From an uncultured Alphaproteobacteria bacterium (lineage in GTDB: Bacteria; Pseudomonadota; Alphaproteobacteria; Micavibrionales; Micavibrionaceae), in contig CAMLMC010000001.1 in NCBI GenBank assembly GCA_946481075.1, forward strand, positions 186,001 through 250,000: a DNA stretch of 64,000 nucleotides, given 5' to 3'. Shown here piece after piece: positions 6,911-60,867 of this stretch. Under the pieces are notes generated by a model. The model was not told the origin of the DNA, made no database searches, and saw only the letters and a program-made list of their open reading frames with translations. A program made the position numbers and the translations under genes. Position 1 is the stretch's first letter. Each line of letters begins with the position of its first letter.

Positions 6911-8452
6911 ATGCCAAGCAGTGCGCGCAATATCCTAGGTTTCCGGTCGTCCGGTATAAGAAAAGGGAGCGGTGAGATGAGCGATATTCTGGCGGCGCTC
7001 AGCCGGTCCCAAGCCGTTATCGAGTTCAGTATGGATGGCACGATTTTAACGGCGAATGAAAACTTTCTGAAGGTGATGGGATACAGGATCGATGAGATCA
7101 AGGGCAAGCATCACAGCATGTTCGCGGAACCTGCCTTTGCCGCCAGTCAGGAATACAAGGATTTCTGGAATGCCCTGCGCCGTGGCGAATTTCAAGCGGC
7201 GCAGTATAAACGTCTGGGCAAGGGCGGCAAGGAAGTATGGATCGAGGCATCGTATAACCCGATTATCGGCCGCAATGGCAAACCATACAAGGTTGTCAAA
7301 TATGCCACCGACATCACCGAAAAAAGTCTTCAAATGGCGGAGCTGAACGGCCTTATTTCCGCGATCAACAGGTCTCAAGCGGTGATTAACTTTGAGATGG
7401 ACGGCACGATTATCGATGCCAACGAAAACTTTCTGAGCGTGATGGGTTATACGCTCGATGAAGTCAAAGGCAAGCATCACACCATGTTTGCGGAACCTGC
7501 CTTTGCAGCCAGTAAGGAATATAAGGATTTCTGGGAGGCCTTGCGGCGCGGCGAGTTCCAGGCAGCGCAGTATAAGCGTATCGGCAAGGGGGGCAAGGAA
7601 GTGTGGATCGAGGCGTCCTATAACCCGATCTTTGATATGAACGGCAAGCCCTTTAAAGTGACGAAGTTTGCCACCGACCTTACCCCGCGCAAGGAAGAGA
7701 ATAAACGCCTGGTCGCGGATTTCGAGACCAATGTTCAATCGCTCGTCCAGATTGTCGCGTCTTCGGCAACGCAAATGCAGGGGACATCGCAATCGCTTGC
7801 AGCGGCGGCGGAGGAAACGGGCGTGCAATCCAATATTGTCGCCACGGCAACCGAAGAACTGTCTACATCGGTCGGGGAGATTTCGCATCAGGTTGCGAAT
7901 TCGGCGCGGATTGTCGGTGAGGCTGTGCAGGAGGCCCGCCGTTCCGAAGAGCTTGTGGCCGGGCTGGTGGAGGCCGCCGGCAAAATCGGTGAGGTCACAT
8001 CCATGATTTCGGATATCGCGGACCAGACGAATCTTCTGGCCTTGAATGCCACCATCGAAGCCGCGCGTGCGGGCGATGCGGGCAAGGGCTTTGCCGTTGT
8101 TGCATCCGAGGTGAAAACACTGGCATCCGAAACCGCGAAGGCAACGGAAGAGATTTCATCGCAGATCGGTGCGATCCAGATTGCCAGCCGCACATCGGCA
8201 GAAGCCATCAAAAAAATTGCGGATGTGATTACGAACGTTAACGAGATCAGCACCGCAATTTCGAGTGCCATCGAGGAGCAATCCGCGGCCACGCAGGAGG
8301 TCTCCGCGAACATTTCCGGCGTTCAAAGGGCCGCGAATGACACGGGCCAGTCTGCGGCCGTCATGTCCGAAGTTTCGAAGGATCTGTCGGGCCGGGCCGA
8401 GGACCTTCAGACCCGCGTGCAGGCGTTTTTGGAAAAAGTCCGGGCGATGTAA
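6911..8452 (+). CDS. Soluble methyl-accepting chemotaxis protein with tandem PAS domains
   Basis: A 513-aa chemoreceptor without membrane segments or HAMP domain. Two PAS domains (about 25-145 and 147-265) are nearly identical in sequence, each with [10 protein letters not shown] and [16 protein letters not shown]. The cytoplasmic signalling domain follows (about 280-510) with the conserved hairpin tip in [18 protein letters not shown], which contacts CheA/CheW. No C-terminal CheR-binding pentapeptide is seen. It would detect an internal cue, perhaps redox or a bound flavin or haem, and tune motility. AAAGGAGAG 6 nt before ATG supports the start. It is a single-gene transcription unit with its own promoter, operator-like palindrome and terminator. 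Confidence 0.92.
6980..7690 (+). repeat. Intragenic tandem duplication encoding two PAS domains
   Basis: The stretches at about 6986-7324 and 7352-7690 encode PAS copies that match at most positions and align without large gaps, with period about 366 bp. The DNA is also alike, e.g. around 7095-7215 versus 7461-7581. This is a recent internal duplication or one homogenised by gene conversion. Confidence 0.75.
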
Positions 8453-18810: not shown

Positions 18811-19563
18811 ATGTTTGATAAAAGTAAAATAGCAGACGCCGCGGAAACTTTTCGCGAATATGCCAAGCGTTATATTCGCACGACAAGTGGGGCCTATAGG
18901 CCACCTGCCAAAGAGGATTCCCGTTTCCAAAGTTTCATCAGTTTGCGGGAGCATTTTAATGACCATGTCTTCCTCGATGATTTTGAAGAACAGGAAATCG
19001 CGCTGATATCGAAAGATCTCGGAAATAAGGGATTTCATTCTTTTAATTTCGTTGCAGAAGGCCAGACGGCGCACGCCTATGAAAGTAATGATCTCATTTT
19101 CAGGATCTCCCCACATCCAGTTGATGAAGGATCAAGGCTAGAGCACCGAATGGTCCGCCCTATATGTCCGCTGACACTACAAACACATGATTATTATCAA
19201 ACAGCAGGTAGCAAGATACGGGTGGAAATTATGCCCTATATTGTAATGGTGCCTAAGCCTGATATTCCGGATATTTTCGCCGATATTTCCAAAGCTGTTT
19301 TGACAGGTACGCATTTCAAGCTTGTTGATTTCAACAAGGATGTAGGTGTTCTTCCGGATGGAACTCCGGTCTATGTCGATCCGGATATGATTGATTTTGA
19401 TGGGGATGAAGATGAACTGCAGGCCGACATTGCTAAAATAGCGGATAACACCAGAAAACTTGAATTGCCCGAACCGTTTTCATGGGTTCTGCCCGATGGG
19501 CGTTTCAAGCAGGATCAATTCTTTGCCCCCCGCGGCGGCGGCACCTTAATTCCCGCGTTCTAA
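18811..19563 (+). CDS. Unrecognised protein with kinase-like motif
   Basis: A 250-aa soluble protein that I do not recognise by family. Two stretches recall the protein-kinase-like fold: an N-lobe-like run (FNFVAEGQTAHAYESNDLIFRIS) and, at residues about 170-203, a D-F-N-x-D-V-G-x-L-x-D-G-x-x-V-Y-V-D-P-D stretch resembling a degenerate catalytic loop followed by a metal-binding Asp. The classical H-x-D and glycine loop are absent, so activity is doubtful. The DNA is AT-richer than its neighbours, consistent with transfer. It stands alone, divergent from ubiE, with a leaderless-type start and a palindromic repeat directly after its stop. Confidence 0.55.
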   Translation: MFDKSKIADAAETFREYAKRYIRTTSGAYRPPAKEDSRFQSFISLREHFNDHVFLDDFEEQEIALISKDLGNKGFHSFNFVAEGQTAHAYESNDLIFRISPHPVDEGSRLEHRMVRPICPLTLQTHDYYQTAGSKIRVEIMPYIVMVPKPDIPDIFADISKAVLTGTHFKLVDFNKDVGVLPDGTPVYVDPDMIDFDGDEDELQADIAKIADNTRKLELPEPFSWVLPDGRFKQDQFFAPRGGGTLIPAF

Positions 19564-39449: not shown

Positions 39450-41780
39450 TTAAAACGGCTTCCAGACGCTTATGCCTGGATCCTTGATGCTGTCCAGATT
39501 GCTGCCGAGGGATGGAATGCCAAGATCTATTTGCGGCGTCGACATCGGTGCGCCCACCGCGCAATTGTTGAAGATGTCTGTGCAAACGGATTGAGGTGCC
39601 TGATCTGTCAAGCCCGGAAGGGTGATCTGGATCTGGCTTTGCGGAAGAAGGGACATCGGCGAGAGGCTACCCTGAACGACGTTTGCGCCCAGAACAGGGG
39701 TTGGCAAGCTTGTAGGTGCTTCCATTTCCGGTGCTTGGGCCGTTACGGTCTCTTGTGGTTTTTCCTGTTCAATCGCCGGTGTTGTTGTATCTTTTGCCAA
39801 CAAAACATCCGTTACGCCTTCGGAATGCATGCCTGTTACGCGGGATATGCTGGCCTGCATTTCAAGAACGGCGGGGGTGGCATCGTTGCCCGCCATAAAG
39901 TTCTGGACATAGTTGCCCGGGCCCATTTCCGCGAGAGATTGTTTGTTTTCCCAGGCATAGGTGCCCTGAAGCAGGGCTTGCATATTTGCAGACACTTCAG
40001 CCTGCGTAGTATTTTCGTCTGCCACAAGCTTGAAAGTCTTATCCATATCAAAGCCCATTTCCTGCGCTAGGCGCTGGGCTTCATATGGCGTTGGCGCTTG
40101 TGTCATACCTGTCGCACCGCCAAGGAATTGTTGCTGTTCGATAGTTGTGATGCCATGACTGATGCGCAGGGCGTCATACATGCTCATTTCACCGCCATTT
40201 GCCGCTGCATAGTCTTTAAAGGCATCTGCATAAACCTCTGTTACGAGATCACGGTTCTCACGGTCGAAGGCGAGGGTGCCTTCATCGGTGTAGCCAATCG
40301 CATCATTCTGGATTTCTTCGGCAAGCACGCTCGATCCGCCAATGATTTCTGTATCGACAACCTGCACATCGACATAATTGCGGGCGGCCACGGCCTCATC
40401 GGTGGGTGTGTGTTCCGGTGTTGCGAGAACAGGGCCGAGAGAGGCTTCGATCACCATCGGGCCGTTTTCGGAATTGATGTCGATTTGTGTCAGTTCGGCC
40501 ACAACATCAAGCTGGAAGTCCTCGGACGCATGCGCGGCGTTATAATCATTCAGGAATTCCTGATATTTGCCGTCTTCCAGCAAAGTCAGGGCCGCGAATT
40601 CCTCGCGGCTCAAAATATCTTGCGGTCCGCGCTCCGCTTCGGGCGGCAGGGCGGACCAGGCTGTATAGGCATCATCCCCGAGATAGGCGCGCATCTGGTC
40701 ATCGGATGGCAAAAGCAACTGCCCCGTTGCGGCCATGTTCGTTACAACGCCATAGTTTACTTCGCCATTGTCAAGCAGGACCCCGTCGGGAATGGTTTGT
40801 TCGCGGGACAGAAAGTCTTCGGCGGCATCGACCGTATCCGTGCGCACGATACCATCGGCGGTGATGTGGCTGTATCCTTCGCTGAGTAGATAATTCTGTG
40901 CCACGGAAATCAATTGCGGGTTGCCGCTTTCAAGATCGCTTTGCAACTGGTTCGGGGCCATCGCATTTTCAGTGAGGCCCAGAACGCGTTCAAGCCCGTC
41001 TTGCGTAATCTGACCTGTCGGTTGTCCGTTTGCATCCTTTTCGAACATGGATTGCAAAACGGAATTGATGTCACCGCCATCTGCCAGAACGATATGCTGG
41101 TTCTGAATCAAAAGTTGTCTTGTCGCATGAACGCGCGCGTAATCATCCCCGATATTTTCAGGTTGAAGCCCGCCGGCATAGCGAAGAACGGAATCAAGCT
41201 GGCTATTCAATGATTGATCGAGCGCAGCGGCCTCTGCAACGGCGGCTGCATCGCGTGTTTGCGCATCCGTCACGGCCTGATTCATTGCCGTTTGCATTTG
41301 GGCGGAAGCAGTGTTCAAACCAATGTTGGAGGCGCGCAGACTTTCGAAAGTTGCATCCGGTGTATCAAGATATTCGGAATTGAAAGAGGCGAGATCTACC
41401 AATTCGTCCGTTGTGAAATCGAACGTCGCGAAATCAACATCATAACCCGCCATATACATCGCGGATTTGAGGGCGCTGGATTCAATGTCTGTGATCGTAC
41501 CGGCGGCGCGTCTGGCGACAAGGTCCCTCAGTCTGTCGCGGGCCGGCATCTGCGCATTCATATCGGCGGCAGTGACATTGCCATTTGCATCGGCCTGCGC
41601 GGGCGGGCGGATGTTGGAATCAACGCCGCGGCCCGCCTGTTTCATCAGTGTGGCAAGCGCGGCCGAGGGTAGGGATTGAAGCGAGCTCGTATCACCCTGA
41701 ACGCCATTGACGAGGTAGTTCAGGCCCGAAAGCGCCTGAAGCATATCCCCTGTCTGCGGTGTTTCGTTATATGTAGCCAT
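39450..41780 (-). CDS. Large unrecognised acidic protein
   Basis: A 776-aa protein that I do not recognise. No signal peptide or membrane segment is seen, the composition is acidic and rich in Ala, Thr, Gln, Asn and Asp, and Cys occur only near the C-terminus (V-C-T-D-I-F-N-N-C). Two D-A-N-G loops (residues about 61-72 and 247-260) faintly recall EF-hands but lack the position-12 acid. The region 630-700 is Pro/Thr-rich, and the end is I-S-V-W-K-P-F. It follows the 145-aa unknown after 117 bp on the same strand, thus likely the last gene of an ilvE-led run. Possibly a secreted or surface protein exported by a non-Sec route; that is a guess. Confidence 0.6.
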   Translation of the reverse strand: MATYNETPQTGDMLQALSGLNYLVNGVQGDTSSLQSLPSAALATLMKQAGRGVDSNIRPPAQADANGNVTAADMNAQMPARDRLRDLVARRAAGTITDIESSALKSAMYMAGYDVDFATFDFTTDELVDLASFNSEYLDTPDATFESLRASNIGLNTASAQMQTAMNQAVTDAQTRDAAAVAEAAALDQSLNSQLDSVLRYAGGLQPENIGDDYARVHATRQLLIQNQHIVLADGGDINSVLQSMFEKDANGQPTGQITQDGLERVLGLTENAMAPNQLQSDLESGNPQLISVAQNYLLSEGYSHITADGIVRTDTVDAAEDFLSREQTIPDGVLLDNGEVNYGVVTNMAATGQLLLPSDDQMRAYLGDDAYTAWSALPPEAERGPQDILSREEFAALTLLEDGKYQEFLNDYNAAHASEDFQLDVVAELTQIDINSENGPMVIEASLGPVLATPEHTPTDEAVAARNYVDVQVVDTEIIGGSSVLAEEIQNDAIGYTDEGTLAFDRENRDLVTEVYADAFKDYAAANGGEMSMYDALRISHGITTIEQQQFLGGATGMTQAPTPYEAQRLAQEMGFDMDKTFKLVADENTTQAEVSANMQALLQGTYAWENKQSLAEMGPGNYVQNFMAGNDATPAVLEMQASISRVTGMHSEGVTDVLLAKDTTTPAIEQEKPQETVTAQAPEMEAPTSLPTPVLGANVVQGSLSPMSLLPQSQIQITLPGLTDQAPQSVCTDIFNNCAVGAPMSTPQIDLGIPSLGSNLDSIKDPGISVWKPF

Positions 41781-41897: not shown

Positions 41898-42335
41898 TTA
41901 AAGGCCGAAACGGTCCAAAGCCAGACTCGTGGCCAGCCGAACTGCGGCAGTTTGGGCTGTGGTTGGGGCATGGCCTATAACGGCTGCGAGATGATCCGGC
42001 GTGATGACTGCGTCCAAGGCCCTGTCGCAAATCTGGTCCTTCATCATCCTGGCCAGTTCGTTTGCGGCATCTTTTAGCTCTTTGTCTTCCATTTGATCTT
42101 TCAAATGTTCCAGATAGGCCATTTCTTCCGCGCTGAACTGCCCGTTCATATCGGCGGGGTAGCCAGCCTCGCGCAGCATTGCCTCCATCGTCAGGACTTC
42201 GTTGCCCTGTACAACCTGTCCGGTTTTGGCGAGGTTAATGATGGCGACCATCTGGTCGGCATCGCTCAGCATCCGTACTTTTTCCGGATCGGTATAAACT
42301 TTTGGGGCGTTCGGGTTGAGGACTTCGATCTTCAT
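41898..42335 (-). CDS. Unrecognised 145-aa protein coupled to ilvE
   Basis: A 145-aa soluble, mainly helical protein that I do not recognise. It contains a D-M-N-G-Q-F-S-A-E-E-M loop near residue 60, loosely EF-hand-like and similar in type to loops in the neighbouring 776-aa protein, but with no full calcium site. The ATG lies 1 nt after the ilvE stop (TGACATG), so translation is coupled to ilvE although no metabolic link is evident. The large unknown gene follows 117 bp downstream. Both look like parts of the same system; no homologous pair is known to me. Confidence 0.6.
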   Translation of the reverse strand: MKIEVLNPNAPKVYTDPEKVRMLSDADQMVAIINLAKTGQVVQGNEVLTMEAMLREAGYPADMNGQFSAEEMAYLEHLKDQMEDKELKDAANELARMMKDQICDRALDAVITPDHLAAVIGHAPTTAQTAAVRLATSLALDRFGL

Positions 42336-42336
42336 G

Positions 42337-43224
42337 TCATGCCGCCTTGGCTTGTTTGGTGCGGACGAGGTCTTCGTAGGTTTCGCGGAGCTTGCGTGTC
42401 ACCGGCCCAACCTTGAATTCCGTGCCATCGATTTTACCAACGGCGGTGACTTCGGCGGCGGTGCCGGTCAGGAAAACTTCATCGGCCTCCAGCAATTCTT
42501 CCGGCTTGATACGTGTTTCTTCGATGTCGTAATTCAAATCTTTCGCAAGTTGAATGACTGTCTGGCGGGTCAGGCCGTTGAGGAAGCAATCGGGAATAGG
42601 GGTTTTGATCGCGCCGTTTTTGACCATGAACAAATTCGCGCCGGTCGCTTCCGCCACAAGGCCGCGGTAATCGAGCATCAGGGCATCCGTATAACCATTT
42701 GCCTCTGCCGCGTGTTTGGCCATTGTGTGCGTGCAGTAGAGGCAGGACGCCTTGGATTGGGTGGGTGCCGTGTCCGACATCGGTGCGCGCCATTTGGCGG
42801 TTTGCAGGGAAATGCCCTTTTCACGCATTTCGGGGCTGAAATAACTCGGCCACTCCCACGCCGCAATGGCGACATGGGTTTGCGTTGCCTGCGCGGAAAT
42901 GCCCATCTGTTCCGATCCGCGCCATGCAACCGGGCGCAAATAGGCATCGGTCAGGTTGTTTGCCTCCAGAACCTCGCGCTTGGCCTTGCTGATTTCATCA
43001 GACGTCATTGTCATTTTCATGTCGATGTAATGCGCGGAGCGGATCAAGCGGTCCGAATGTTCCTTGTCCTTAAAGATATTGCCGGAATAGCAACGCTCGC
43101 CCTCGAACACCGCGCTGGCATAATGCAGGCCGTGGGTCAGGATATGTACATTGGCCTCGCGCCACGGGACGATTTGCCCGTCCAGCCAGATGAAGCCGTC
43201 GCGGTCGTGAAATGCTGCTGCCAT
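42337..43224 (-). CDS. ilvE: Branched-chain amino acid aminotransferase
   Basis: PLP-dependent fold-type IV transaminase of 295 aa that makes Leu, Ile and Val from their keto acids. The N-terminus G-F-I-W-L-D-G-Q-I-V-P-W and H-Y-A-S-A-V-F-E-G-E-R are family blocks; the Schiff-base Lys lies in A-S-C-L-Y-C-T-H-T-M-A-K region, and E-A-T-G-A-N-L-F and V-F-L-T-G-T-A-A-E-V-T bind PLP phosphate and cofactor. AAGGAGA 7 nt before ATG confirms the start. It leads a run with two unknown genes. Confidence 0.96.
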   Translation of the reverse strand: MAAAFHDRDGFIWLDGQIVPWREANVHILTHGLHYASAVFEGERCYSGNIFKDKEHSDRLIRSAHYIDMKMTMTSDEISKAKREVLEANNLTDAYLRPVAWRGSEQMGISAQATQTHVAIAAWEWPSYFSPEMREKGISLQTAKWRAPMSDTAPTQSKASCLYCTHTMAKHAAEANGYTDALMLDYRGLVAEATGANLFMVKNGAIKTPIPDCFLNGLTRQTVIQLAKDLNYDIEETRIKPEELLEADEVFLTGTAAEVTAVGKIDGTEFKVGPVTRKLRETYEDLVRTKQAKAA

Positions 43225-43293
43225 GTCAAAATCTCCTTGAACTTGGTATTTTTCGGGAAAAAAGCGGGAAATGCAAGAGGCGGGGCCTTTATA

Positions 43294-43322
43294 TTGTTTT
43301 GGGAAGGTATAGCTGGTATTCC
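43294..43322 (+). promoter_or_regulatory. Promoter placing transcription start on the response-regulator ATG
   Basis: TTGTTT (43294-43299), exact 17-nt spacer, TATTCC (43317-43322) preceded by TGG (extended -10 pattern), then 6 nt to the ATG. No ribosome site. Confidence 0.55.
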
Positions 43323-43328
43323 TAGTCC

Positions 43329-44057
43329 ATGCCTGTGCAAAGCCAAATCGCCAAGGACTTTCAAAATCTTCCGCATATTTTGGTGGTGGATGACGACGAC
43401 CGTCTGTGCGCTTTGGTGAGCCGCTATCTGAATGAACACGGTTTTTTATCTTTCACCGCGCCCGATGCGGCGGCGGCCAAGGATATTCTGGGGGTCGGCG
43501 TATTCGACGCCCTTGTCCTCGATGTCATGATGCCGGGGCAGGACGGGCGGGATCTGACCCGTGAATTGCGTTTAAGCCATGGCGATATCCCCATTATCCT
43601 GCTAACCGCAATGGGTGAGGCGGATGACCGCGTGGCGGGCCTTGAATCCGGCGCGGATGACTATCTGACAAAACCGTTTGACCCGCGCGAGCTGGTTTTG
43701 CGCCTGCAATCCATTTTGCGCCGCAGGCCGCCGCAGGACGGGGGGCGGAAGATTTATACGATCGGTCGCTGGACCTATGACCCTCTGGTGCCGGAACTGG
43801 TGGACGGCGCCGAAACGGTTCGCCTCACCGATGTGGAAGACACGCTTCTCAAGACTCTGGCGCAGCGGCCCGATACGATTTTGAGCCGCGATGATCTTGC
43901 CGAGCTGTGCGGGGTCGATGCCGGTGAGCGCACAATTGATGTGCAGGTCACACGCTTGCGCCGTAAACTGGAAGAAGATTCGAAAACGCCGCGTTATCTG
44001 CAAACAGTGCGTGGCAAAGGCTATCTGCTCCGCGCACAAGAGAAGGAGGTATCATGA
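43329..44057 (+). CDS. OmpR-family response regulator
   Basis: A 242-aa regulator with a receiver domain (about residues 15-130; acidic triad in LVVDDDDR, phosphoacceptor D65 in ALVLDVMMPGQDG, T in LLTAMG, K in LTKPFDPRE) and a winged-helix DNA-binding domain (about 145-238) ending TPRYLQTVRGKGYLL. It resembles OmpR of alphaproteobacteria. The kinase gene overlaps its stop by 4 nt, giving a cognate pair. Leaderless-type start. Targets are unknown; osmotic or envelope genes would be typical. Confidence 0.94.
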   Translation: MPVQSQIAKDFQNLPHILVVDDDDRLCALVSRYLNEHGFLSFTAPDAAAAKDILGVGVFDALVLDVMMPGQDGRDLTRELRLSHGDIPIILLTAMGEADDRVAGLESGADDYLTKPFDPRELVLRLQSILRRRPPQDGGRKIYTIGRWTYDPLVPELVDGAETVRLTDVEDTLLKTLAQRPDTILSRDDLAELCGVDAGERTIDVQVTRLRRKLEEDSKTPRYLQTVRGKGYLLRAQEKEVS

Positions 44058-46291: not shown

Positions 46292-46445
46292 GCGATTCCC
46301 TTATGAGTTGTGAGAACAATGCGAGAGTATTCCTGATTTTTTAAAGAATGCGATCATTTTCAACCTGTTAGGGGTTTATTAACCGGAATTGGGCACTCTG
46401 GAACGTGGAGAAGGCTGCCCCGACCCATTCTGGGTGGCATCAAAC

Positions 46446-52310: not shown

Positions 52311-53216
52311 TTACTGGAAGGAAATCTGGGCGCGGCGGTTTGCCGGTTCACGCACACCGTCCGGTGTCGCGACGAGCGGGGCGCTTTCGCCTTCCGTGCT
52401 AACCTGAATGATCGCCGGGTTCACGCCGCGCTGGGCGAGGGCGTCACGAACGGCGTTGGCGCGGCGCATACCGAGCTTGTCGTTGTATTCATCCGAACCG
52501 GAACGGTCGGCGTGACCGACAACAACAACCGAATTCAGGCTGCGTTTTGCAACTTCGGCGGCAACGGCGTCAAGAACGCTTTGAGCGCCCGGGCCGAGTG
52601 TCGATTGGTCGAAGTCGAAGAACACGAGATACATCGCGTTTTCAAGTTGCATCGGCGCGTTGGGGTCAACGGCATCGAGCGGATTTTCTGCCTGCGCAGG
52701 CTCGGCAATCGCTGGAGGAGCATCCGGCATTGCGCCTTCGAGCTGTTCCAGGGCGGAGAGGAATTCGCGTTTGCAACGGGCGATTTCATCGGACTGGAAG
52801 TTTTCTTCCTGGTTTTCGATCCAGCAATCAAAGCGGGCCTGGGCCACGGCGGACACATCCGGATATTGTTCACGGGCGCCAAGGTCAAACACTGTCACGA
52901 GGCGGGAGCGGCCAACGGACAGTTCTTCCATTGTTTCGGCTGGTACGTTCCAGTCAGACAGGGATTCCGGCATCACGACATCGCCGCGTGCGGAGGAGAG
53001 ACCCTTGCGCGAAAAGTGCAGCGCATCGGCATGGTCTTTGAAGCTGCCGAGTTCACTGTCGACGAAGGATTTATATTCGCTGGAAAGCTTTTGCGTGAAG
53101 GGGCTTCCGACCGGCTGAACTTCGTTCAACGCATCGACCTCTTTGAATTTGTTGAAATCGCAAGCGCCAAGGGCAGCAATGCTGGCCATGATCATTAAAC
53201 CGCGCGAGATGTGCAT
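52311..53216 (-). CDS. OmpA-C (Pal-like) lipoprotein
   Basis: A 301-aa lipoprotein with signal MHISRGLMIMASIAALGAC (Cys19; lipobox LGAC) and a C-terminal OmpA/Pal peptidoglycan-binding domain (about residues 190-300): Y-L-V-F-F-D-F-D-Q-S-T-L, V-V-G-H-A-D-R-S-G, Y-N-D-K-L-G-M-R-R-A-N-A-V and A-N-R-R-A-Q-I-S-F, with the diaminopimelate-binding Asp and Arg in place. The 150-residue middle part is unassigned and has two Cys. Asp after the lipid Cys may keep it in the inner membrane by the enterobacterial +2 rule. GAGGAG precedes ATG; it has its own terminator. Confidence 0.88.
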   Translation of the reverse strand: MHISRGLMIMASIAALGACDFNKFKEVDALNEVQPVGSPFTQKLSSEYKSFVDSELGSFKDHADALHFSRKGLSSARGDVVMPESLSDWNVPAETMEELSVGRSRLVTVFDLGAREQYPDVSAVAQARFDCWIENQEENFQSDEIARCKREFLSALEQLEGAMPDAPPAIAEPAQAENPLDAVDPNAPMQLENAMYLVFFDFDQSTLGPGAQSVLDAVAAEVAKRSLNSVVVVGHADRSGSDEYNDKLGMRRANAVRDALAQRGVNPAIIQVSTEGESAPLVATPDGVREPANRRAQISFQ

Positions 53217-54192: not shown

Positions 54193-55315
54193 ATGAAGGC
54201 AGAAATCCAGGCAGTTGTGGGCGAGATTGAAGACGCCCTCGTATTGCTGAGGAGGCATCTTTGACTGGGATGCCAGTCTGGCCCGTCTGGATGATCTGAA
54301 CCGTCAAGCCGAAGACCCCGATCTTTGGTCCGATGCCGAAAAGGCGCAATCCGTGATGAAGGAACGGACCACTCTGGATCACCAGATTTCCACTATCAAG
54401 CGTTTCGAAACGGGCGTGAACGACAATGTCGAATTGATCGCCATGGGGGAGGAAGAGGGGGATGAGGGCATTGTTCATGATGCCGAAACAGCCCTGAACG
54501 ATCTTCACAAAGAAGTCCAGAAGTATCAGCTTGAAAGCCTTCTCTCTGGCGAGGCGGACGGAAACGATGCGTATCTTGAGGTCAATGCCGGTGCCGGCGG
54601 GACAGAGGCGCAGGACTGGGCGGGCATTCTTCTGCGCATGTATAGCCGTTGGGCCGAACGTCGAAAATTCAAGGTATTTCTGCTGGATAAGAGTGATGGT
54701 GAAGAGGCCGGAATAAAATCCGCTACGATCCGTATAGAAGGGCACAATGCGTATGGTTGGTTAAAAACCGAGTCAGGCGTTCATCGTCTGGTCCGCATTT
54801 CACCCTTCGATTCCAATGCCCGCCGCCACACTTCCTTTGCCTCTGTCGGCGTGACTCCGGTGGTGGATGATAATATCGATATCGAAATCAATCCCGCCGA
54901 TCTGCGTGTCGATACGTACCGTTCCAGCGGTGCGGGAGGTCAGCACGTCAATACAACCGATAGCGCCATCCGCATCACCCACATCCCGACCGGGATCGTG
55001 GTAGCGTGTCAGACGGAGCGTTCACAGCACCAGAACCGTGCCAACGCCATGTCGTTATTGAAAGCGCGTCTTTATGAAGCGGAGCTGCAAAAACGGGAAG
55101 AGGTGGCGAACGCCGCCAATGCGACCAAAACCGATATCGGATGGGGGCATCAAATACGTTCCTATGTTCTGCAGCCATACCAGATGATCAAGGATGCCCG
55201 CACGGGAACCGAGAATACCAATTCTCAGGCCGTGCTTGACGGCGATATCGACCTGTTCCTTGAAACATCGCTCGCCCATCGCCTTGGCATTAGCGACAAG
55301 CAAAACAAGTCTTAA
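54193..55315 (+). CDS. prfB: Peptide chain release factor 2 (programmed +1 frameshift)
   Basis: RF2 recognises UAA and UGA stops. Translation begins at ATG 54193, reaches an in-frame TGA at codon 24 (54262-54264) and must shift +1 (skipping T54262) to go on with GAC at 54263; the product is 373 aa. The SPF stop-codon reader (V-R-I-S-P-F-D-S) and the catalytic GGQ ([10 protein letters not shown]) are intact. Read as a single frame, only the segment from 54353 would be annotated, so the gene is easily mis-started. It follows a DJ-1 gene. Confidence 0.95.
54249..54265 (+). promoter_or_regulatory. prfB programmed frameshift site
   Basis: AGGAGG at 54250-54255, two to three nt, then CTT-TGA-C: internal Shine-Dalgarno-like stimulator, slippery CTT and in-frame TGA, the arrangement known from RF2 autoregulation. 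Low RF2 favours shifting, so the gene senses its own product. Confidence 0.92.
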
Positions 55316-55328
55316 TTGATATCATAAC

Positions 55329-55348
55329 CATCCCGTCAAGACGGGATG
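55329..55348. repeat. Short perfect hairpin after prfB
   Basis: CATCCCGT-CAAG-ACGGGATG, 8-bp stem, no T-run after it. Resembles arms of the type C repeats or a weak terminator. Confidence 0.5.
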
Positions 55349-55474
55349 CTATTGTGCCCCGACCTGTATGAACGTTCGAATGGCTGCGCAGAATCTTTCT
55401 TGCTTATAAACAAGCCAGACCTTATTGTTTTGACCGATCACAATTCATAATTCTTAACGGGGTTCACGCCGCCC

Positions 55475-56743
55475 ATGATGTTCCGCTCCACACCCATTCG
55501 TACTTCGGTATCCTTATGTGCCCTGATCGGGTTTTGTACCCTTGCACCGGTGCAGGCCAAGGCGCAGGGTGCGGCGCATCATTTTACACCGCTCCAAGGG
55601 TGGACGGTGGGGAGCACCGAGCTGGCCTCGGTACGTGGTCTTCAGGATGTGAAACTGCCCTGCGTGCTTTCTGCCGAATATGACAACGGTTATATCGTCC
55701 GTTTTTCCGGTGGTGGAAACAAGATGCTTGCTCTTGCTATCGACTTCCGTCAGGAGGTTTTTACCCGTGGTAAAAAATATGCGGCCATGCTTTCTGTGGG
55801 TGATGGATATGTGAAACAGGTCGGTGCATCGGCCTTTACGCCGGGTATTCTGATTTTTAATTTGCGCGACCTTCCCGACATCTATGGCGTGCTGAAAGGC
55901 GCCAAGGATTTTTCGCTCGATATCGATGGGAATGTCTTCACTTTTTCGCTGCAGCAAATGGCGCAAAATTTCGGCTCGCTTGAGGCGTGTTACGCAACCG
56001 GCAATGCTGCGCCTATTGCCCCTGTTGTTGCGCAGAATGATGCAATGAATGCGCCGCAATCTATTGTGCCGCCGGCACCTGTGCAACAACATGCCTTGCC
56101 GCGTTCGTTCGATGATATCCTGACGGCGGAGCCGGATGCGCCTGCAGCAGCAACGCAAAATGCTGCGGTTGGAATGCGCCGCACGGATAGCGTTCTTCCG
56201 CGCAGCGGAAGTGTGTCCCGCGCTCTTCCGGCCACCCAGAAATCCGCAACATGGACTGCACAATCGGGTGAGGATATAAGGGCCGTGTTGTCCCGCTGGG
56301 CGGGGCAGGCAGGATACGAACTGCAATGGCAGGCGGATAACAATGGGCAGGTGGTGCAGGATATTGCCGTTGATGGAAGCTTCGAACAGGCGGTTTCACA
56401 ATTGCTTGCGGAGAACAAAGCCGTCACCGGAATTAGTGGCCGCTTCGACACTGGCGGGATGTCTGCGCAGCCCTCTTCTGGTTCATGGTCCGCATCTGCC
56501 GGTTCTGACTTGAAATCGGTTTTGGACCAGTGGGCAGGGCGCGCCGGGGTTACAGTTGTGTGGGAGTCATCCGCCGGCATGCCGCCTCTACGCGCCCCTG
56601 TTCAGGCGCAAAGCTTTGAGTCGGCGGTTCAGGCGGTTCTGGACCAATATGAGGGGGATCTGCGTCGTCCCGTGGCCCGCCTCAACACCGATCCGCAGAC
56701 CAAAAAGCGCACGCTCTTGCTTGATATCGACAGCGCCGGTTAA
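55475..56743 (+). CDS. Exported protein with two TcpQ/STN-like domains
   Basis: A 422-aa exported protein with Sec signal (about residues 1-31). Residues about 40-180 form a domain shared with the N-terminus of the next gene: both have a Cys (L-P-C-V-L-S), L-A-L/I-D-F, V-F and a terminal L-E-A-C-Y / L-E-D-C. A Pro/Ala-rich linker leads to two TcpQ/PilL-C-like repeats (about 258-317 and 334-395), each W-x-A-x-S/A-G-x-D-I/L-x-x-V-L-x-x-W-A-G-x-A, similar to the secretin-associated STN fold. These usually accompany secretins or pilus assembly, but no secretin is near. Periplasmic localisation is likely. Confidence 0.72.
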   Translation: MMFRSTPIRTSVSLCALIGFCTLAPVQAKAQGAAHHFTPLQGWTVGSTELASVRGLQDVKLPCVLSAEYDNGYIVRFSGGGNKMLALAIDFRQEVFTRGKKYAAMLSVGDGYVKQVGASAFTPGILIFNLRDLPDIYGVLKGAKDFSLDIDGNVFTFSLQQMAQNFGSLEACYATGNAAPIAPVVAQNDAMNAPQSIVPPAPVQQHALPRSFDDILTAEPDAPAAATQNAAVGMRRTDSVLPRSGSVSRALPATQKSATWTAQSGEDIRAVLSRWAGQAGYELQWQADNNGQVVQDIAVDGSFEQAVSQLLAENKAVTGISGRFDTGGMSAQPSSGSWSASAGSDLKSVLDQWAGRAGVTVVWESSAGMPPLRAPVQAQSFESAVQAVLDQYEGDLRRPVARLNTDPQTKKRTLLLDIDSAG

Positions 56744-56877
56744 GTTTTTGCTGATAACTTTGGCTTTTGCTTGATTTGACGAAAATCGGCCTTTCCCGTT
56801 CCGTACCGCTCGGCTATGGTTTGTCATTAATCTTTTGACGGATTCGGATCAACGCTAAGCGGGCCGGGATTTTGACC

Positions 56878-59800
56878 ATGCAGACGAAGAAATACCTGAT
56901 ATCCACACTTATGGCGAGCAGCCTTCTGGTAGGGGCTATGATTGCCACGCCGGGCGGTGCGCTGGGCAAGTCGCTGGAGCCGAAGGGGTCATGGTCGCTT
57001 TCTAAAGTCGATCGCACGGCGCAGGGCGGAAATTCCTATTGCACATTATCCCGCAAATATGAGGGGGGGATTATCCTGAGCCTTGCCCGTAATACGGCAG
57101 AGGAATATTCCCTCGCGCTCGATTTCCAAAAAGATGTATTCGCCAAGGATGAACCACTGAAGATCAATCTTCAGCCGGGCCCTGGAAAACTGCGTGCCTA
57201 TGATTTGTTGCCCGCCTCGCAAAAGGCGGTGGTGATCCGCCTTGGCTGGGACGAAGGGTTTTTCGAGGCGCTGAATACCTCCCAGAAAATGAGCGTTAAA
57301 ATCGCGGACAGCGAATATGATTTTGCCATGCCGCTGATCGCGAGGGGGCAGGCCGATCTGGAAGATTGTATGGAAGATCTGAAGTCGGCGGAGCGCCCGG
57401 GGCCTGCCACGGTCGTGCCCGGCAAGGATGTTTTGAGCGCCGCGCCGGTTTCAACCTCCAAGGCCTTTGATGCGGGGCGCGTCAATCAGGCCGAGATGGC
57501 GATGGCCAAGGCCGATGTCGAAGCGCAGGAACAACAAGTTCTTCAAAACTTTGCGGCGAGCATGCAGGCGCAGGAAGATGCGGTAGACAATAAAAAGACT
57601 AATTTTGGCCGCCAGCCGGAAGGCGGAAACAAGCCCGCAAAAATGGCAAATGCTGCGCCTGTCGACATCACGCCGAAGGCGGAAATGGTGCAGCAAATTG
57701 AACCGGCCGCAGGCAAGTCAGGCGATGCGCCGCAGGACGGCGGACGTGTCGCGGCGCTTGAGGAGGAAATCGCTGCGTTGAATGCCGAAAAGGCGCATCT
57801 GGCCAGCCGCCTTGCATCGATAAAACCGGAAGACCCGGCGAGGTTTGCTGCGCTTGAAGGTGAACTTGGTGCGGCGCGGGCCGAAATCGAAGTCTTGAAA
57901 AAGTCCGCGAGCGCCGCCGCGGAATCGTCCGAGAAAATGGGCATGCTCCAAAAGCAACTGGACAATGTCGTGGCGGAAAATACGGCCCTGAAAGAAGCTG
58001 CGAAACAAGGGGCGGAGCTTACTGGCAAAACGGCGGCTCTTGAAAAGCGGGTGGCTGATCTTTCCATGGAAAATGCTGCCCTGATAGCCAAGGCGGGCGG
58101 GGTAGAACAAACGGCAGCTCAGATTGCCGAAATGCAAAAGCAGATCGCTGCGCTCTCAGCGGAGAACGAAGCCTTCAAGTCCAAGGCGGCGGAGCCTGAA
58201 AAATCATTGCCTGCCGATGTTGCGAAAATCACCCAGCTGGAAAAACAACTGGCAGATATAAAGGCGCAGAATGCGGAGCAGGCATCAAAGCTTGCCGCCG
58301 CGCCGGCTTCCTTGCCTGCTGATACGGCAAAGATAGCGGAATTGCAAAAACAGCTATCGGCAATGCAAACAGAAAACGCCGATATCAAGGCCCGGATAGC
58401 GATGCCGACCGTTTTGACGTCCCTGCCGGATGATGCGGCACGAATAGCCGATCTGGAGAAGCAGATGGCGGCCCTGAAAACAGAGAACGCGGATGTGAAG
58501 GCCAAACTGGCTGCCGCGCCCGCAGCAGGCGCCGCGCAGCCCAATGACGCAAAAATTGTTGAGCTGGAAAAGCGTATTGCCGATCTCACCACCGAAAACA
58601 ACAGTTTGAAATTGGCCTCTGCTACAGGCGGCGATGTTTCCAAGGCCAAGTTGCTTGAGCTTGAAACGAAAAACAAAACTTTGCAGGACAGGTTAGACGC
58701 TGTCGCGCTTCAGAACGCACAAAAACCGGATGCAGCCCAGGTCGCGGGGCTGCAAAACAAGATCAACGAACTGACGATCAAAAACCAGCAGCTGGAAGAA
58801 ACGGTTCGCAACTCGCAAACGCGTATTGCCGAGGCCGCAATTAACACAGAGACGAAATCCCTGAAAACCATCGCCGATCTGGAAGTGAAGCTGGCCGCTG
58901 CGCAAAAAGACAATATTGCGCTTTCACAGGAAGTAGAAAGCCTGAAGAGCGGACAGGATCAGGCCCGTCTGACGCTGGCCTCCGGCAATTGGGATCTGGA
59001 GCAGGCGACCAAGAGATATAATGAATCGGAGCGCGAGAACCGCCGTCTTGGTCTTGCGCTGGAGCAGGCACGGATGAGCTGTAATGCCGAAAAATCAAAG
59101 ATCGAACAAATGCTGTTTGATCCCGCCGTGGCCGACCAGAAACAAATTGACCGCCTGACCCAGCTGGAAGAACAACTGGCCGAGGCAAACGCCAAGCTGG
59201 CCTCTGCCGGCATATCCGCCGTAGGAAATGGCGGCGGTGTTGCCGCTGTGCCAGTGGCCGCCGTGAGCCGGGCGCCGCTGGATGCCCCATCATCCGGATG
59301 GCAGGACGAAAAGGCCCAATTGCTGGCCAGGATTGCCGCGCTGGAAAGTGATGACAAATTTACAGGAATCAGTCCGTTGCCAGATAGTGGTGCCGAACGC
59401 GATGCCAAGGTTCAGGCGGCGGAGAGCCAGAATGCACAATTGCGTGGCGAGATTGAAAAGCTGCGGGCGCAACTTGCCGATGCGAACAGCAATGGATCCA
59501 TCCGTGCCGACCGCGTGGCGATGGCGCAGCGCGAGGCAGAGCGCTTGAAACGTGAAAAGGAGTTTGCGGCGAACCAGTCGTTGACTTATCAAAACCAGAT
59601 TATGGCGCTTCAGCAGGAAAACAACCGGTTGAAGGCGGAAGGTGGCAATGCGCCGACACCGCCGCCTGCAAAAGACAACCGTGCCGCTGCGCAGGCGCGT
59701 GAACTTGCCGCAGTTCAGCCTGCTGCCGGTGTCCCTGATGCGCCATCAAAAGGCAATTTCGGTTCATCCGAAGTCAAAGCCCTTTTGCAAAAAGCGGGCG

Positions 59801-60195
59801 TGACCAGTGGTGGCCTGAATAAGTCCTCCAGCGGTTTTGCCGGGGCCGAGAATTTTACATGGTCGGGTCAAAATGGGGTCAGGGGCGTGGCATCCGTGAA
59901 GCAAATCGGGTCAGAGAGCGAATTCAGCAAAATGGTGGATCAATATATCGCCGGACAAAAATCGAGCTGTGGCGGGGATTTTGCCTCCATGCCATCTCCA
60001 TCTTCTTCTGCCAAGGGCAAAGTGGCACTTTATGAAACCGCCTGCGTCAGCGGGTCACAGGGGACGTCGGCCTCAACCGTGTTCTTCATCGAACAGGGAC
60101 GGTTCGTGGCAATTTCAAGCGAAACCGCGGCCGCCGATATGGACAATGCCATGGATTCCCGTGACCGGATCGTGAGCGCCCTGGCGGGGATGTAA
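56878..60195 (+). CDS. Exported giant coiled-coil protein
   Basis: A 1105-aa protein. Signal peptide (residues 1-about 30), then the domain shared with the preceding gene (about 35-170; Y-C-T-L-S-R-K-Y, S-L-A-L-D-F-Q-K-D-V-F, L-E-D-C-M-E-D-L), then a very long coiled coil (about 275-930) with roughly seven copies of a 35-residue unit containing I-x-x-L-E-K-Q-[IM]-A-x-L-x-x-E-N, and a C-terminal domain of about 150 residues with two to three Cys. Such a rod could span the periplasm. The frame begins at TTG 56872; ATG 56878 is preferred. Function is unknown; presumed to act with the 422-aa neighbour. Confidence 0.72.
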   Translation: MQTKKYLISTLMASSLLVGAMIATPGGALGKSLEPKGSWSLSKVDRTAQGGNSYCTLSRKYEGGIILSLARNTAEEYSLALDFQKDVFAKDEPLKINLQPGPGKLRAYDLLPASQKAVVIRLGWDEGFFEALNTSQKMSVKIADSEYDFAMPLIARGQADLEDCMEDLKSAERPGPATVVPGKDVLSAAPVSTSKAFDAGRVNQAEMAMAKADVEAQEQQVLQNFAASMQAQEDAVDNKKTNFGRQPEGGNKPAKMANAAPVDITPKAEMVQQIEPAAGKSGDAPQDGGRVAALEEEIAALNAEKAHLASRLASIKPEDPARFAALEGELGAARAEIEVLKKSASAAAESSEKMGMLQKQLDNVVAENTALKEAAKQGAELTGKTAALEKRVADLSMENAALIAKAGGVEQTAAQIAEMQKQIAALSAENEAFKSKAAEPEKSLPADVAKITQLEKQLADIKAQNAEQASKLAAAPASLPADTAKIAELQKQLSAMQTENADIKARIAMPTVLTSLPDDAARIADLEKQMAALKTENADVKAKLAAAPAAGAAQPNDAKIVELEKRIADLTTENNSLKLASATGGDVSKAKLLELETKNKTLQDRLDAVALQNAQKPDAAQVAGLQNKINELTIKNQQLEETVRNSQTRIAEAAINTETKSLKTIADLEVKLAAAQKDNIALSQEVESLKSGQDQARLTLASGNWDLEQATKRYNESERENRRLGLALEQARMSCNAEKSKIEQMLFDPAVADQKQIDRLTQLEEQLAEANAKLASAGISAVGNGGGVAAVPVAAVSRAPLDAPSSGWQDEKAQLLARIAALESDDKFTGISPLPDSGAERDAKVQAAESQNAQLRGEIEKLRAQLADANSNGSIRADRVAMAQREAERLKREKEFAANQSLTYQNQIMALQQENNRLKAEGGNAPTPPPAKDNRAAAQARELAAVQPAAGVPDAPSKGNFGSSEVKALLQKAGVTSGGLNKSSSGFAGAENFTWSGQNGVRGVASVKQIGSESEFSKMVDQYIAGQKSSCGGDFASMPSPSSSAKGKVALYETACVSGSQGTSASTVFFIEQGRFVAISSETAAADMDNAMDSRDRIVSALAGM

Positions 60196-60323
60196 GTTGG
60201 GCAAAGGTCCCGGCGGCATCCAGAAATGTGGGGCTGAATACAGGTCCTCGCTGGGTATACTTCGGTGAAGTGTGGATAAGCCGCGAACTTTTCCACAGTC
60301 TCATAGAAATGAGCAAGGCAATA

Positions 60324-60357
60324 AAAACCCGGCGGTGATGCCGGGTTTTCTTTTTTT
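60324..60357. terminator. Terminator between the coiled-coil gene and phaR
   Basis: Perfect 10-bp stem AAAACCCGGC / GCCGGGTTTT with a 6-nt loop, then CTTTTTTT; the left flank A-run lets it act on both strands. Confidence 0.88.
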
Positions 60358-60372
60358 GAAGGTGGCTTAGGA

Positions 60373-60867
60373 CTATTTATCGTCCTTGTCGCCGCTCTGC
60401 GGACCGAAAGGGCGGAACATGCGCATGGCGTTTTCAAACATCGCCATATTCTGCTTGTTGATTTCTTCCAGGTTTGGAACCGGGAACATGCCTTCGATGG
60501 ATTTGTTGATCTGGTTGCGCAATTCTTCCTGGTTCTTGGCGAAGGTTTGCAACGTGTGTTCCAGATAGTTCGGGACCAGCGGGCTGATATTATCGCCATA
60601 GAATCCGATCAGTTGTTTCAGGAAACCAACGGGCAGAAGGTTCTGGCCGCCTGCAGATTCCTGATCGACGATGATTTGAGTTAGAACCTGACGGGTCAGG
60701 TCTTCGCCGGACTTTGCGTCATAAACGACAAAATCATGGCCTTCTTTGACCATTTCGCACAAATCTTCGAGCGTGACATATGAGCTGCGGCCTGTGTCGT
60801 AGAGGCGGCGGTTAGCATACTTTTTGATGACCGTAGGTTCATCTTGTTTTTTCTTGGTAGTAGCCAT
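60373..60867 (-). CDS. phaR: PHA synthesis repressor PhaR
   Basis: PhaR binds PHA and DNA, repressing phasin genes until granules form. The 164-aa protein has the N-terminal PHB_acc_N domain (K-K-Y-A-N-R-R-L-Y-D-T-G-R-S-S-Y-V-T-L-E-D-L) and the PHB_acc region (G-E-D-L-T-R-Q-V-L-T-Q-I-I-V-D-Q-E). A strong AAGGAGG precedes ATG. It is divergent from phaC, with 133 bp between the starts; PhaR or its signals may control both directions. Confidence 0.96.
   Translation of the reverse strand: MATTKKKQDEPTVIKKYANRRLYDTGRSSYVTLEDLCEMVKEGHDFVVYDAKSGEDLTRQVLTQIIVDQESAGGQNLLPVGFLKQLIGFYGDNISPLVPNYLEHTLQTFAKNQEELRNQINKSIEGMFPVPNLEEINKQNMAMFENAMRMFRPFGPQSGDKDDK

Follow-up and report, generated by a model that had tools for sequence, protein, structure and literature searches.

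Two adjacent genes, here called A and B, lie on the plus strand of a 64,000-nucleotide stretch of DNA from an uncultured alphaproteobacterium of the Micavibrionaceae (GenBank assembly GCA_946481075.1, contig CAMLMC010000001.1, positions 186,001 to 250,000), which is referred to below as the window. An earlier note, made from the letters alone, had read them as exported proteins that share an N-terminal domain. Our analysis confirms the coordinates of both open reading frames (ORFs) and, as judged by eye, finds a signal-peptide-like N-terminal segment without a lipobox in each. For B, the ATG at 56878 is favored over the TTG at 56872 as the start. The features of the pair are as follows.

55475 to 56743, plus strand: gene A, predicted exported protein of 422 amino acids with the shared N-domain and two TcpQ domains
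55577 to 56002, plus strand: A residues 35-176, shared N-domain, IalB/MotY-N-like fold, with Cys63 and Cys172
56246 to 56434, plus strand: A residues 258-320, first TcpQ domain (Pfam)
56474 to 56734, plus strand: A residues 334-420, second TcpQ domain, BfpG/DotD/secretin-N0-like fold (Pfam, model comparison)
56878 to 60195, plus strand: gene B, predicted exported protein of 1105 amino acids, counted from the ATG
56968 to 57387, plus strand: B residues 31-170, shared N-domain with Cys55 and Cys164 (alignment, hidden Markov model, profile-profile comparison)
57745 to 58737, plus strand: B residues 290-620, short coil-like runs split by Pro/Gly, variable among relatives
58840 to 59202, plus strand: B residues 655-775, conserved coil segment that also occurs in the type C family described below
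59740 to 60192, plus strand: B residues 955-1105, C-terminal domain with a Mog1/PsbP-like fold (predicted model)

The N-domains of A and B are homologous. Smith-Waterman alignment of the two N-terminal regions scores 98, a value reached by none of 2000 shuffles (mean 27.6, standard deviation 4.7), and a hidden Markov model (HMM) of B-type N-domains recovers A of the window with an E value of 1.3e-11. The HMM-HMM comparison proposed in the earlier note, done with HHalign on profiles of 23 A-type and 17 B-type members, gives 99.6% with an E value of 1.7e-23 over 147 columns. Every hallmark named in that note is present in both domains, namely a Cys pair, a core of the form LALAIDF / SLALDF ... 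VF, and an LExC end; one Trp and two Cys are invariant across 23 aligned N-domains. The likeness might be thought merely compositional, a product of two unrelated exported low-complexity or coiled-coil proteins, and the extensive low-complexity coil of B does draw SMC-like matches below their cut-offs. However, the region common to both proteins does not overlap the coil, and the shuffle test, the HMM, and the profile-profile comparison each find it significant. This explanation is refuted by the shuffle test together with the profile-profile comparison, and we give it next to no weight.

The two genes are also linked. The order considered throughout is that of Micavibrio sp. UBA7689, which we infer to be Micavibrionales, and 142 of its genomes were searched. 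An A-based search of genome contigs returned 20 loci, labelled as Micavibrio (3), Pseudomonadota (2), or metagenome-assembled genomes of Alphaproteobacteria; together with the window and 9 of the 20 loci of a second search, these make a set of 30. A and B are adjacent on one strand in 30 of 30 loci (gap of -26 to 195 bp), a figure that measures closeness rather than the frequency of co-occurrence, since the loci were picked for holding both genes. Left outside this set were loci with TcpQ-only proteins (L055, L058, L061, L069, L070, and L071) or type C proteins only (L059, L062, L064, and L072), one lacking TcpQ (L057), and 18 loci of a further search. The C-terminal domain of B was found in 117 of the 142 genomes. 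The corresponding tally for the A profile, 138 of 142, does not serve here to count A, since paralogues with TcpQ only, type C proteins, and the N-domains of B-type proteins are caught by the profile as well. The neighborhood survey called for in the earlier note indicates a two-gene module, its proteins sharing a domain, that is conserved across the order. That A and B are one conserved exported module stands on much firmer ground than any assignment to a host machine.

The predicted fold of the N-domain resembles those of both IalB and the N-terminal domain of MotY, the flagellar T-ring protein, with which the model aligns at nearly tied Z scores (PDB 3dtd, 8z5n, and 2zf8). By sequence, the N-domain profile retrieved nothing meaningful among PDB chains, MotY chains included. 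Profile-profile matches to the IalB family (PF06776) are weak, at 10.9% for A-type and 2.9% for B-type domains, and Pfam does not list PF06776 for A or B up to an E value of 10. We therefore retain the likeness to IalB as a resemblance of fold only. IalB proteins also have four invariant Cys at positions other than those of the A/B N-domain, and IalB proper was matched separately in 90 of 94 genomes of the order, in open frames of 94-307 amino acids. In contrast to MotY, no OmpA-type peptidoglycan-binding domain is listed by Pfam in A or B, an OmpA lipoprotein being a separate neighbor. Our literature search found no paper on IalB and MotY together.

The second half of A belongs to the TcpQ/BfpG family of type IVb pilus accessories (PF10671), matching it over two stretches with 92.2 bits against a gathering cut-off of 27. 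The earlier note had called these domains TcpQ/STN-like; the TcpQ part stands, whereas STN is not listed for A by Pfam up to an E value of 10, although the modeled fold of the second half resembles N0. Two TcpQ-type domains occur in 19 of the 30 loci and one was detected in the other 11, while the N-domain of A went undetected in five (L065-L068 and L073). A thus differs from described TcpQ/BfpG proteins in its additional N-domain and, at those 19 loci, in the doubled TcpQ-type domain.

Residues 290-930 of B form a broken chain of coils and not the single coiled coil of about 650 residues that had been proposed. Pro and Gly divide this region into runs of which those of at least 25 residues measure 27-31, except for one of 67 (625-691) and one of 48 (874-921). 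Heptad periodicity over 291-930 as a whole, taken as power at 3.5 residues, is matched by 6 of 500 shuffles. The signal is clear in 286-345 (0/500), 346-440 (1/500), and 661-775 (5/500), marginal in 776-950 (38/500), and not above shuffles in 441-560 (113/500) or 561-660 (153/500). Since no 28-residue window exceeds an arbitrarily set power threshold of 2.0, the evidence for coils comes from the longer stretches and from the runs free of Pro and Gly. The Crescentin rod family (PF19220) was rejected for B at 22.9 bits against a cut-off of 100, and this match, like the SMC-like ones, was ascribed to composition. The C-terminal domain is indeed separate, with a mean predicted local distance difference test score of 92 in the predicted model, whose fold matches include EagT6, SciW, DcrB, and LpqN. 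Its profile found nothing meaningful among PDB chains by sequence. Compared with other Mog1/PsbP-fold proteins (DcrB, EagR, PsbP, and LpqN), B carries its version fused to the N-domain and the broken coil.

Simpler relatives of B exist outside the order. In a class-wide sample, 11 of 385 genomes match the C-terminal domain of B, and four of these (G001, G005, G066, and G102) belong to the order. Five of the six outside-order loci that were read, from five genomes, encode the N-domain and the Mog1 domain in one ORF of 308-432 amino acids with no coil; the sixth (L081) is truncated by the contig end. The seventh outside-order genome, G243, gives a weak match with the C-terminal domain only partly seen (L090). 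Within the order, intact B-type proteins that have a coil or a long middle are between 632 and 1615 amino acids in length. Because the outside-order proteins lack coil and TcpQ, we infer that the coil and the fusion to TcpQ seem to be additions to an older protein of the alphaproteobacteria. The earlier note had envisaged a periplasm-spanning or ring-associated structure; the fold likeness to ring parts holds up, but a rigid rod across the periplasm is unsupported because the coil is broken, the length of B varies widely, and the outside relatives that were read are coil-less.

A prfB gene with PCRF and RF-1 domains (Pfam) lies upstream of A on the same strand. It has an apparent ATG at 54193, ends at 55315, and appears to require the classic +1 frameshift at CTTTGAC (54259-54265). 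The gene stands immediately upstream of A in 25 of the 30 loci, its extended frame overlaps A in L016 and L017, and it was not found at L012, L019, or L020. Also upstream on the same strand is a PfpI-like gene (57 bits, under the cut-off of its NCBIfam model). Farther upstream, on the strand opposite to A, is an OmpA-family lipoprotein gene at 52311-53216 (Pfam; lipobox by eye), whose cluster has members in 25 compared loci, the window counted. Downstream of B are a polyhydroxyalkanoate regulator gene on the minus strand, a gene for an alpha/beta-hydrolase that matches PhaC_N at a borderline level, and a thiolase gene. Two hairpins flank the pair.

60324 to 60349, plus strand: terminator-like hairpin downstream of B, 11 pairs and a T-run, by consensus match only
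55329 to 55348, plus strand: hairpin lacking a T-run, located between prfB and A; equally good folds arise in 8 of 200 shuffles

The terminator scan picked up 14 sites of this kind in the region, compared with 7.6 in shuffles; on the plus strand, it listed none in the prfB-A interval or in the A-B interval. Joint transcription of A and B is plausible. A scan for sigma-70-type promoters gave two sites against 3.2 in shuffles, and no DNA-level tandem repeats were found within 55000-60500. In agreement with the earlier note, searches of 33 window proteins (Pfam) and of the PfpI-like protein (NCBIfam) turned up no secretin, pilin, or secretion ATPase, which sets A and B apart from TcpQ/BfpG systems. 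The Pfam scan covered the genes that flank A and B, starting at 46389 and continuing to the end of the window, and part of the remaining window ORFs, and for 20 other window proteins it reported matches only up to an E value of 1e-10. Nor was a flagellar structural gene found among the scanned window proteins, a further contrast with MotY. Elsewhere in the window, a chemoreceptor gene lies at 6911-8452, and the ORFs at 39450-41780, 42316-43419, and 18811-19563 (776, 367, and 250 amino acids) have no Pfam match at an E value of 1e-10.

Related proteins occur in other settings. At L055, a TcpQ protein without the N-domain is encoded near DotD and a DotB-like ATPase (386 bits, under the cut-off of 463), in a Dot/Icm-like type IVB locus, and it is related to the second half of A. 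L058, L061, and L069 share BLAST clusters with this locus. The earlier note had held that clear homologues in pilus or secretion loci would tell against a new system; the paralogues in the Dot-like locus go halfway, in that they match the TcpQ portion and lack the shared N-domain. Because all six TcpQ-only loci lack that domain, these paralogues are cousins of half of A, not the same system. DotD itself is present in 132 of the 142 genomes. The 2011 genome paper on the predator strain M. aeruginosavorus ARL-13 reports no evidence of type IV secretion (PMC3189940), while another source reports pT4SSi in seven Micavibrionales (PMC9418006). Our searches found no paper on Micavibrio with TcpQ or with DotB, and neither BfpG nor TcpQ occurs as a word in PMC12114550. 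In a further family, type C, the same N-domain is followed by an extended Pro-rich middle and by the coil segment conserved in B (L059:7553-9844, L062:7939-10032, L064:9405-11294, and L072:8024-9976), and no B gene was found in the examined stretch at these four loci.

Tentatively, we propose that A and B would be two subunits of one exported periplasmic scaffold on an envelope machine encoded elsewhere, with the polar flagellar motor slightly preferred as host. The TcpQ domains of A, with their N0/DotD/BfpG-like folds, would pack with an outer-membrane ring, and the paralogous MotY-N-like domains could let A and B dock mutually or sit side by side on it. B would extend through its flexible chain of short coils to the Mog1/PsbP-fold domain, which may bind a further partner. 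On a motor, the pair would make a collar analogous to the T-ring. MotY by itself is able to form an additional ring around the P-ring (PMC6375700), and MotK and MotE, periplasmic accessory proteins of an alphaproteobacterial motor and so from the same class as A and B, are a suggested part of a T-ring-like structure (PMC10954123). The N-terminal region of MotK is called AMIN-like (PMC10954123).

Several observations are consistent with a link to motility. FlhA is present in seven of seven outside-order genomes that match the C-terminal domain of B, compared with 221 of 385 class-wide (hypergeometric 0.019, or 0.002 for 11 of 11 matching genomes), in a test that ignores kinship and includes two weak or truncated matches among the seven. 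A PAS-GGDEF-EAL gene of cyclic di-GMP (c-di-GMP) type, assigned by Pfam on two members, comes after B at 8 of the 30 loci of the order, once with an intervening gene, and also follows the B-like gene of L099 within the order. Outside the order it follows the coil-less B-like gene at three of seven loci (L086, L087, and L089). At L097, B is convergent with genes for a TPR-like protein, two MotB-like proteins, and CheZ, although the match to TPR and one of those to MotB fall short of Pfam cut-offs. At L100, lookalikes of this cluster, recognized by eye, precede DUF6468 and FliM. FlgI occurs in 132 of the 142 genomes of the order, and the remaining 10 each carry FliP or FlhA.

A number of points weigh against the motor. 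Secretins occur in 141 of the 142 genomes, alongside the widespread DotD, and since flagella, secretins, and DotD are nearly universal in the order, presence alone cannot pick the machine; flagellar co-occurrence within the order has no power. No GGDEF-EAL gene follows the B-like gene at four of the seven outside-order loci (L084, L085, L088, and L090), and the convergent clusters of L097 and L100 come from probably related genomes and may reflect a single rearrangement. The N-domain model fits IalB as well as MotY, with no link by sequence found to either, and IalB is, to our knowledge, not a flagellar protein. TcpQ domains are otherwise known from pili and secretion systems, and prfB, the usual upstream neighbor, is not flagellar. 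It is possible, if somewhat doubtful, that A instead serves in trans as an accessory of an outer-membrane secretion or pilus ring, either Dot/Icm-like type IVB or secretin-based, in the manner of BfpG/TcpQ or DotD, with B as its partner or tether. The TcpQ membership of A suits such a role, but a TcpQ protein is already encoded within the Dot-like locus itself, and no such machine was found among the scanned window genes. Moreover, TcpQ looks like an add-on rather than the core, because some relatives have B-type proteins or N-domain tandems at loci where TcpQ was not found (L057, L091-L094, L096, and L099). Among the 18 loci of the further search, only the C-terminal domain was seen at L095, L098, and L101, and L097 and L100 carry TcpQ parts in short separate ORFs next to B.

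That coil-less, TcpQ-less relatives exist outside the order, and that no machine genes accompany A and B in the scanned window stretch, would suit a surface or periplasmic system in its own right, acting for example in prey attachment or envelope homeostasis, with the Mog1/PsbP domain as a ligand-binding module or as a chaperone for a membrane protein, in the manner of EagR or LpqN. The modeled fold matches to EagT6, SciW, DcrB, and LpqN point the same way. We regard this as rather unlikely, since the pairing of TcpQ/N0 with the N-domain in A is hard to explain outside ring complexes, and the class-wide FlhA association, while weak, tilts toward motility. The motor collar is our first choice, well short of an even chance, with the secretion or pilus-ring accessory close behind and the independent envelope system third. 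The fullest form of the collar proposal is a new periplasmic collar of the polar motor built from a MotY-N-like pair, with one member fused to secretin-type N0 domains and the other to a segmented tether that ends in the Mog1 fold; it would be linked to c-di-GMP control and derived from a simpler alphaproteobacterial ancestor within an order that counts epibiotic predators among its members. We regard this form as unlikely.

No description of the A/B pair was found in the literature, although most subscription papers fell outside the coverage of the search, which makes this weak evidence of absence. Most of the genomes searched in the order, one member of which is an obligate epibiotic predator, contain the module, and its paired paralogues join domains like those of two kinds of envelope ring, the flagellar T-ring type and the secretin/Dot type. 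If A and B form a motor collar, they would represent a further origin of such rings; if they are instead part of a secretion ring, they could bear on prey attachment and feeding.
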